This document shows, in pieces, positions 8,691-9,982 of a stretch of DNA of 64,000 nt. Position 1 is the first letter of the stretch; each line of letters starts with the position of its first letter. Source of the stretch: Lysobacteraceae bacterium (GTDB lineage: Bacteria > Pseudomonadota > Gammaproteobacteria > Xanthomonadales > Xanthomonadaceae). Position numbers and translations under genes: made by a program. The DNA lies in NCBI GenBank assembly GCA_003241895.1, contig QBLY01000009.1, positions 1-64,000 on the forward strand, in the 5' to 3' direction. The notes below the pieces were generated by a model. That model had not been told where the DNA came from. It worked only from the letters and a program-made list of their open reading frames with translations, and ran no database searches.

Positions 8691-9181
8691 TGCCCGTGCT
8701 GCCGGTCGGCACCCGCCGCCGCCTGATGAAGCACCCGCTGGGCTGGGTGGCTGCCGGGTTCGGCGCCGGGTTTTCGCCGCGCGCGCCGGGCACGGTGGGC
8801 AGCCTGGTGGCGCTGCTGCCGTGGTGGTTCTTCCTGCGCGACCTGCCGCTGCCGATGTACCTGGCGGTGCTGGCGGTGGGCTTTGGCGTTGGCGTGTGGG
8901 CCTCGCACTGGGCCATCCGTGAAACGAAGATCGAAGACCCGTCGCTGGTGGTCTGGGACGAGTACATCGGCATGTGGATCGCGCTGCTGATGGCCCCGGC
9001 AGGCTGGGCCTGGGTGCTGGCGGCATTTGCGCTGTTCCGCCTTTTCGATATCTGGAAACCCTGGCCGGTGAGCTGGGCCGACCAGAAGCTGCACGGCGGT
9101 TTCGGCGCCATGCTCGACGACGTCATCGCCGGGCTTTATGCGCTGGGCGTGCTGCAGCTGGCCGCGTGGTGGCTGCGCTGA
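8690..9181 (+). CDS. pgpA: Phosphatidylglycerophosphatase A
   Basis: Membrane phosphatase that dephosphorylates phosphatidylglycerol phosphate in phospholipid synthesis. 163 residues with about three to four hydrophobic segments. The family motifs GFSPRAPGTVGS near the N-terminus, VWDEYIGMW in the middle and the C-terminal DDVIAGLYA are present. The start at 8690 reuses the A of the thiL TGA. It is the last gene of the rib operon; a short hairpin lies downstream at 9204-9226. Confidence 0.95.
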   Translation: MPVLPVGTRRRLMKHPLGWVAAGFGAGFSPRAPGTVGSLVALLPWWFFLRDLPLPMYLAVLAVGFGVGVWASHWAIRETKIEDPSLVVWDEYIGMWIALLMAPAGWAWVLAAFALFRLFDIWKPWPVSWADQKLHGGFGAMLDDVIAGLYALGVLQLAAWWLR

Positions 9182-9359
9182 TCGTTCCGTAGGAAGATTC
9201 GGACGCCGCGCCGACTTCGCGCGGCGCCGGCGTTCGGGTCTGACGGTGTTGCATGCCCTTGTCTCAGGCGTTTTCGCCGCGCCTGCCGACGGCCCCGGCG
9301 TCACGCCGATGCTCCCATGGCCTTGCCTGCACTCCGCAGGCCAACAAGGGAGAAACACC
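9182..9359 (+). promoter_or_regulatory. Leader region of the small-peptide locus
   Basis: 178 bp between pgpA and the first small peptide gene. CGCCGCGC at 9204-9211 pairs with GCGCGGCG at 9219-9226, a possible 3' end of the rib operon but without a T-run. Near the peptide gene, CCTTG+CCTGC (9321-9330) can pair with GCAGG (9336-9340) and CAAGG (9345-9349) around a small bulge. This folds over part of the AAGGGAG ribosome-binding site (9346-9352). No convincing promoter hexamers were found. Confidence 0.4.
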
Positions 9360-9539
9360 ATGAGGGCATTGACCCTGCACGAGCACGCCGCGGTGAGCGG
9401 CGGCGAAGGAATCATCGGCACCATCGCGCTGATCGCGGTGGCCGGCTGGATCTGGCAGAACCGCGAAGCGCTCAACCAGATCGCCCAGACCGCCTCGATG
9501 AAGCTGTCCGACCTCGACGCCGAATGCGGCCGTCCGTAA
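9360..9539 (+). CDS. Double-glycine-leader peptide 1 (bacteriocin-like precursor)
   Basis: A 59-residue peptide. Residues 1-15 form a canonical double-glycine leader: L4 (-12), E8 (-8), V12 (-4) and G14-G15 (-2/-1), the signal cut by the C39 peptidase domain of peptide ABC exporters. The putative mature peptide (16-59) starts with a glycine-containing hydrophobic segment (about 17-32) followed by an amphipathic stretch ending in CGRP. AAGGGAG lies 7 nt before the ATG. Residues 32-59 are paralogous to the third peptide. Class II bacteriocin-like or signalling peptide is an inference; no exporter gene is in the window. Confidence 0.72.
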   Translation: MRALTLHEHAAVSGGEGIIGTIALIAVAGWIWQNREALNQIAQTASMKLSDLDAECGRP

Positions 9540-9556
9540 CCCACCTGGAGAACGAT

Positions 9557-9742
9557 ATGCGAAACCTCGATTCCGCTGAACTCAAGTGCGTCGCCGGTGG
9601 CGACAGCGTCGATACCAACCTCGGCAACGGCGCCGGCTACGTCCTGCACGGCGTCACGTCGCAGGAAGCCCAGGCCCTTGGAATGCTTTCGCCCGCAGGC
9701 TGGTTCATTGGCGCGGTGCTGCATTACGCCACCACGCATTGA
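9557..9742 (+). CDS. Double-glycine-leader peptide 2 (bacteriocin-like precursor)
   Basis: A 61-residue peptide whose first 15 residues match peptide 1 at M1, R2, L4, E8, V12, G14 and G15, and also have the canonical leucine at -7. The putative mature part (16-61) is glycine-rich at its start (NLGNGAGYVLHG) and has a hydrophobic C-terminal segment with a GWFIG (GxxxG) motif, a feature of two-peptide bacteriocins. It is unrelated in sequence to the core of peptide 1. TGGAG lies 6 nt before the ATG, and only 17 nt separate it from peptide 1, so the two are co-transcribed. Confidence 0.72.
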   Translation: MRNLDSAELKCVAGGDSVDTNLGNGAGYVLHGVTSQEAQALGMLSPAGWFIGAVLHYATTH

Positions 9743-9746
9743 TCTG

Positions 9747-9784
9747 TCCGTTCCCGCCGGCGAGACGTCGCTGGTGGGAACGGA
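9747..9784 (+). promoter_or_regulatory. 17-bp hairpin between peptide genes 2 and 3
   Basis: TCCGTTCCC (9747-9755) is perfectly complementary to GGGAACGGA (9776-9784), and the pairing continues inward through eight more positions (two G-U) to a GACG loop. No T-run follows, so it is more likely an RNA-stabilising or partial-termination element that sets the ratio of the upstream pair to the downstream gene. Confidence 0.55.
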
Positions 9785-9814
9785 TCCAACCCGATCCATC
9801 ACAAGGAGTCGACC

Positions 9815-9982
9815 ATGCCCACGCCCCTTCAAATGCCGTCGTGGCAGTCCCTGCGGCCGCTGCTGATGCTGCTGCTGCTGTTCGCCGTCTGGAGCGAGCG
9901 CGACGCCCTGCAGGCGATTGCCGACGCCACCTCCGATTCGCTGTTGCGCCTGGCCGCGGCCTGCGGCGATCCGAACCGCTGA
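9815..9982 (+). CDS. Leaderless small membrane peptide, paralogue of peptide 1
   Basis: A 55-residue peptide with a strong AAGGAG site 6 nt upstream. A leucine-rich hydrophobic stretch (about 13-26) is followed by residues 26-53 that align without gaps to residues 32-59 of peptide 1 at a constant offset of six, with 13 of 28 identical (W, R, A, L, I, A, S, L, L, A, C, G, P). It has no double-glycine leader. A membrane-resident immunity or decoy protein is one possible role; a degenerate third precursor is another. Its stop codon directly abuts the stop of the convergent gene at 9983. Confidence 0.6.
   Translation: MPTPLQMPSWQSLRPLLMLLLLFAVWSERDALQAIADATSDSLLRLAAACGDPNR

Follow-up and report, generated by a model that had tools for sequence, protein, structure and literature searches.

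A conserved cassette of two double-glycine peptide genes and a candidate immunity gene related to one of the peptides in Lysobacteraceae

Genes and signals at the locus

The window, a 64 kb stretch of DNA whose host genus is most likely Arenimonas, contains three short consecutive genes, here called A, B and C (Table 1). They are preceded on the same strand by ribBA, ribH, nusB, thiL and pgpA and followed on the opposite strand by a gene of the uracil-DNA-glycosylase superfamily (UDG) and an FAD oxidase gene. An earlier note on this DNA had described a three-gene double-glycine locus, with 59- and 61-residue precursors that satisfy every key leader position. For A and B this description was borne out in position, length and leader. 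The 15-residue leaders, MRALTLHEHAAVSGG in A and MRNLDSAELKCVAGG in B, both carry L at -12, E at -8, V at -4 and GG at -2/-1. C is not a double-glycine peptide, and this assignment was rejected because the leader is absent in all eight C proteins compared below. The ribosome-binding sites that had been claimed for all three genes could be read directly in the sequence.

Table 1. Features of the A-B-C locus and of other double-glycine peptide loci (positions without prefix refer to the window; prefixes L036 to L174 denote loci in other genomes)
Feature	Position	Strand	Remark
RBS of A	9346-9352	+	AAGGGAG, read from sequence
Gene A, double-glycine precursor, 59 aa	9360-9539	+	core 44 aa with one hydrophobic helix
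RBS of B	9547-9550	+	GGAG, read from sequence
Gene B, double-glycine precursor, 61 aa	9557-9742	+	46-aa core containing a GxxxG motif and three conserved histidines
Stem-loop between B and C	9746-9785	+	-40.8 kcal/mol versus -22.1 (sd 3.6) in base shuffles
RBS of C	9803-9808	+	AAGGAG, read from sequence
Gene C, leaderless, 55 aa, candidate immunity protein	9815-9982	+	hydrophobic N-terminus, paralogue of A core
pgpA-UDG gap peptides	L036:9820-10023, L037:7157-7360, L038:12499-12690, L039:11363-11584		
Two double-glycine peptides of G149 (67 and 70 aa)	L037:13868-14299		adjoining exporter and HlyD genes
Second C39 exporter of G152	L040:8379-10538		
Double-glycine peptide of G152 (70 aa)	L040:6835-7047		close to the second exporter
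Malic-enzyme/aceE gap peptides	L108:7807-8085, L109:9015-9236, L109:10051-10299, L173:5692-5937, L174:7530-7760		

When both strands of the window were passed through a strict filter for leader and ribosome-binding site, designed with the leaders of A and B already known, A and B were the sole two open reading frames retained, and none was retained in 60 dinucleotide shuffles of the window. No sigma-70-like promoter was found between positions 9100 and 10050. Structure prediction from three-row alignments, and hence weak, gave two helices for A (residues 6-33 and 35-56, mean pLDDT 69) and one helix for C (residues 10-51, mean pLDDT 78).

The stem-loop between B and C was predicted in all eight cassettes found in this study, with a sequence that differs between the two genera concerned; the weakest, that of G275, reached -20.6 kcal/mol versus -15.7 (sd 3.0) in base shuffles. 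It was rejected as an intrinsic terminator, since it has no T-run and none was called on the plus strand, and as a genome repeat, since it has only short matches elsewhere in the genome. One guess is that the hairpin adjusts how much toxin message there is relative to immunity message.

GxxxG occurs in the B cores of all eight cassettes and in none of the A cores; we count its absence from A against the bacteriocin reading set out below. Three histidines of B (H31, H56 and H61 in the window) are kept in 8/8. Near its end A has one place occupied by Cys in five and His in three sequences (C56 in the window), and every C protein has one cysteine near the C-terminal end (C50 in the window). A metal or redox link among the three proteins is a possible reading of this Cys/His pattern and is offered as a lead only.

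Conservation of the cassette

Among 395 genomes of the family, a sample of a larger group, seven convincing genomes were found with an A profile and eight with a B profile, at the same places; the A gene of G243, which the A profile did not catch, was located beside its B. Matches up to E 0.1 came from 53 genomes in all for A and 60 for B, and those beyond the convincing set were partial or weak. When B was sought across the order, in 398 genomes, the only additions were six partial matches (E 0.001-0.007). The order A, B, C is the same in all eight genomes, which represent two genera of the family. By the A and B profiles, the cassette is present in 4 of 27 genomes of the genus considered here; the cassettes outside Arenimonas (G192, G275, G087 and G243) all belong to one further genus, where they adjoin a malic-enzyme gene and in three of four cases lie between it and aceE (the gene names come from family searches for L106 and L107, and elsewhere from similar sequence starts). 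G302, a 57% complete genome, has a diverged A, another double-glycine peptide replacing B, and C.

Loss of the GG motif in relatives and frameshifts between related strains had been named in the earlier note as observations that would speak against the genes. GG was intact in 8/8 A and 8/8 B, V at -4 was likewise invariant, and no frameshift was found among the eight genomes. Position -8 deviates in G152, with Q in A and C in B. Spacing varies from 3 to 20 nt between A and B and from 51 to 73 nt between B and C. Identities to G159 were 90% for A, 84% for B and 89% for C, those to G167 were 77%, 59% and 60%, and G152 holds a diverged set (44%, 41% and 34%).

The dN/dS values against G159 were 0.047/0.190 for A, 0.081/0.401 for B and 0.056/0.216 for C (ratios 0.20-0.26). 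Judged by these substitutions, the cassette is under purifying selection. Against G167 the ratios were higher (0.47, 0.54 and 0.35, respectively), which we count against the bacteriocin reading set out below. The rarity of the cassette within its genus would suit chance reading frames or functionless remnants in decay, but that origin is hardly credible given the ratios against G159, the intact frames in eight genomes and the 0/60 result of the shuffles; chance frames in particular are ruled out by the ratios and the shuffles. The cassette is real and conserved, and A and B, two adjacent and different leader peptides, have been co-inherited in eight genomes.

The exporter and its link to double-glycine peptides

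The earlier note had remarked that no exporter stands next to the genes and had proposed a search of the genome for a C39-peptidase ABC transporter with an HlyD-like partner. Both are present on contig C9, unlinked to the cassette: the one C39 domain of the genome belongs to an ABC exporter of 707 aa, and the gene for an HlyD-type partner comes after it. This rules out the idea that the genome has no exporter, an absence that the note had also named as speaking against the genes. No double-glycine reading frame was found by a loose filter within 18 kb around the C9 exporter. The remark about the missing neighbour holds for this genome, but in some relatives the link is plain. In G192 the exporter and HlyD genes come immediately after the cassette, and in G167 and G152 the exporter ends approximately 2.7 kb before A, within the ribBA-ribH gap; the HlyD-type partner beside the rib-gap exporter was confirmed by family search in G152.

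The exporter likewise occupies the ribBA-ribH gap in G128 and G161. It lies in the rib cluster of G149, where the C39 frame has 140 aa only, between UDG and pgpA in G103, and beyond the UDG and FAD-oxidase genes in G076. In the present genome ribBA adjoins ribH without a gap, and the same is true of G159 as far as the contig end shows. No C39 domain was seen by eye in the 15-18 kb neighbourhoods of G275, G087 and G243.

C39 was present in 10 of the 27 genus genomes. A double-glycine reading frame within 1.5 kb downstream of pgpA was found in 7 of the 25 genomes with pgpA (G165 showed 410 bases only), and all seven have C39; of the remaining 18, C39 is present in two and lacking in 16 (Fisher 7.5e-5, kinship ignored). 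In one of the two exceptions, G103, both an exporter and a double-glycine peptide lie in the gap, farther off, while G156 has neither there. Given the exporter in the genome and this co-occurrence within the genus, there is good support for the proposed export through a C39 ABC transporter, and on sequence grounds A and B are very likely exported.

We infer that the C9 exporter is the one used by A and B. In a tree of ten out of 13 exporters (G149, G156 and the C4 exporter of G103 were not recovered by the reading-frame filter) it groups, with modest support, with the second exporter of G152 and not with the rib-gap exporters; this genome may therefore use a different exporter from its relatives. 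That the exporter is unlinked here and of another lineage than that of G167 and G152 is counted against the bacteriocin reading. The genome shows that such peptides can lie at a distance from its sole C39 exporter, where searches centred on exporters would miss them.

Gene C is a relative of A

The cores of A and B had been described as unrelated, and this holds. The C-terminal half of C, however, is homologous to the A core, with 45% identity over 29 residues. Profile-profile comparison of A with C gave a probability of 98.1 (E 7.6e-14). The A profile placed all eight C proteins in the top nine of 2008 sequences (8 C and 2000 sequences shuffled within halves), one shuffle standing above one real C. 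All eight C proteins have a hydrophobic segment and the same position in the cassette, and the hydrophobic N-terminus stands where A has its leader. The net charge before this segment is positive in seven and zero in the eighth, that of G152. By the positive-inside rule, which was used to orient C, the charge suggests that the N-terminus is inside and the A-like half periplasmic. When solved structures were searched with the profiles of B and C, nothing usable was returned; the lectin matches of C (E 3e-5) span 13 positions. One of the eight C proteins matches a phage-holin model (E 0.0016), which is counted against the bacteriocin reading set out below.

C also resembles the A protein of its own genome. 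The score of the true pairs is attained by only 6 of 40320 pairings, or by 6 of 576 if shuffling is confined to genera. Row by row, just four of the eight A peptides score best with the C of their own genome, and the own pair of G275 is the worst in its genus row. In G192 a second C gene lies behind the exporter, and 14 of 18 residues in the shared helix equal those of its own A. Seven of these 14 residues are encoded by other codons, which ruled out recent copying as the source of the likeness. Contig C21 of G192 holds another C-like match, which did not resolve into a reading frame.

C is the last gene in all eight cassettes, and its profile matched 18 of the 395 family genomes at E <=0.01, 13 of them convincingly. 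No B was detected in four of these genomes (G254, G207, G293 and G109), apart from matches to the leader alone in G254; in both positive controls, G192 and G087, B was recovered. Near the C genes of these four genomes the A profile matched C itself or the leaders of other double-glycine peptides only; the genome-wide A search used a four-row profile, the same that missed the A of G243. Other double-glycine peptides lie in the C region of G254, G207 and G293, and in G293 the C gene lies at the edge of a contig and lacks a good start codon. Because it tends to match its own A, is doubled in G192 and is present without a detected B in four genomes, C behaves like an immunity gene, and we regard it as a candidate immunity protein.

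A possible two-peptide bacteriocin and its self-protection

Our main reading, to which we give a probability of about one half, is that A and B form a secreted two-peptide bacteriocin, of a class IIb- or Cdz-like type, and that C is a protector standing in for A. A and B are likely to have an antibacterial role. Cleavage after GG would remove the leaders of A and B, and the C39-peptidase ABC transporter and HlyD-type partner encoded on contig C9 would export the cores. Together, mature A and B would then act on related bacteria, at the inner membrane. C would remain in the inner membrane of the producer with its A-like helix towards the periplasm, where it would take the place of A and bind incoming B (or A) in an unproductive pairing, so that the pore is blocked. 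Use of the C9 exporter, killing, the topology of C and protection by mimicry are proposed steps.

For the origin of this protection we tentatively suggest that C arose from A by loss of the leader and gain of a membrane anchor, that it occupies the partner peptide, and that A and C co-evolve for specificity; a metal may link all three proteins through the histidines of B and the Cys/His positions of A and C. This suggestion is made less likely by the finding that in only four of eight rows does A pair best with its own C. It is also conceivable, if unlikely, that A and B are the same two-peptide bacteriocin and that C protects in another way, such as masking a receptor or holding a partner protein, its likeness to A reflecting common descent only. 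The immunity-like occurrence of C needs no mimicry, and immunity proteins of the two-peptide class are membrane-associated with a mode of action described as unexplained (PMC8538875); on the other side stand the likeness of C to its cognate A and the second C of G192, which resembles its own A despite the change of codons.

Double-glycine leaders also serve signalling peptides, and B weakly matches the induction-factor model EntF (E 0.17), so A and B could be secreted signals and C a membrane co-receptor or regulator derived from A. We consider this very unlikely: no sensor-kinase gene was seen by eye beside the cassette in the flanks listed, and a co-receptor C would be useless in the genomes where no B was detected. 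More doubtful still is a role for C as a third part of the toxin complex that is kept in the producer, for example by anchoring A and B to the surface or the membrane in contact-dependent killing. Its homology to A would agree with such a role, as would the cell-bound state reported for the Cdz toxins (PMC5380434), but one genome has two copies of C, and four have a C gene and no detected B.

If C, resembling one exported peptide, does guard the producer, this would be an unusual form of self-protection. The eight naturally occurring cassettes, the duplicated C and the four genomes in which C but no B was detected offer material for asking directly whether a toxin can be blocked by a leaderless version of one of its halves.

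Comparison with known systems

The closest organisation compared was that of Cdz of Caulobacter crescentus, described as comprising CdzC, CdzD and CdzI with the type I exporter CdzAB; Cdz-like systems are reported from many bacteria, 14% of them with two adjacent toxins (PMC5380434). The comparison was made by description and not by sequence. As proposed for the cassette, two small toxins in tandem are followed by a small membrane immunity gene, export is of type I, and the Cdz-like leaders end in G[G/A/S], those of A and B in GG. The described toxins are larger, CdzC having 86 and CdzD 84 aa with glycine zippers, whereas the cores here have 39-55 aa and A has no GxxxG. CdzI is described with three predicted spans and no obvious homologs, and likeness to a toxin is unmentioned in the available text of that report, whereas C is a paralogue of A. 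An exporter within about 10 kb, which is a criterion for Cdz-like systems, is near the cassette in G192, G167 and G152 and not in this genome.

Class IIb bacteriocins such as lactococcin G and the plantaricins likewise have two different double-glycine peptides per unit and a membrane-associated immunity protein. Their peptides are described as making membranes leaky as a pair, with GxxxG, a motif also present in B, mediating helix contacts, and the mode of action of the immunity proteins was called unknown in the 2021 review (PMC8538875). Their hosts are Gram-positive and the present one Gram-negative; moreover, A has no GxxxG and the immunity candidate is a paralogue of one peptide. Curated class IIb models stayed below their cut-offs (PF10439 at best 17.9 bits, cut-off 27.1; NF038035 16.4 bits, cut-off 37; TIGR03949 with 2/8 A, E 0.022), as did all matches of curated models to A, B and C; among the weak ones was the MccV model with 1/8 B (E 0.1).

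Class II microcins of the MccV/CvaC type share with the cassette double-glycine peptides, type I export and Gram-negative hosts, some of the same family: cvaC is reported in Xylella (PMC11885251), and single-microcin candidates have been screened from Xanthomonas (PMC13174018). Neither a two-peptide partnership nor an A-like immunity protein is described in the available text of these reports. No case of an immunity protein derived from a toxin, or of an A-B-C cassette, was found in the open-access literature searched. The kind of system is already known, and the A-like immunity candidate is its new part; the cassette adds a compact two-peptide system to Lysobacteraceae.

Other double-glycine peptides in the two gaps

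The pgpA-UDG gap of Arenimonas is pointed to as a site where peptide cassettes are exchanged. Four other Arenimonas genomes carry unrelated double-glycine peptides of 63-73 aa (MREL...GGN...) in this gap. A membrane protein of approximately 170 aa lies beside the gap peptides in G149, G076 and G128; that of G149 is weakly similar to signal peptidase II (PF01252, E 3e-4, below cut-off). A further two double-glycine peptides of G149 adjoin its exporter and HlyD genes, and another lies close to the second C39 exporter of G152 (Table 1). The leader model TIGR01847 matched nothing in the 27 genus genomes, the two leaders described here included, and since it misses even these, its result is uninformative about other double-glycine peptides. 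A second hot spot is the malic-enzyme/aceE gap of the second genus, which holds further double-glycine peptides of 73-92 aa, some with membrane proteins nearby.
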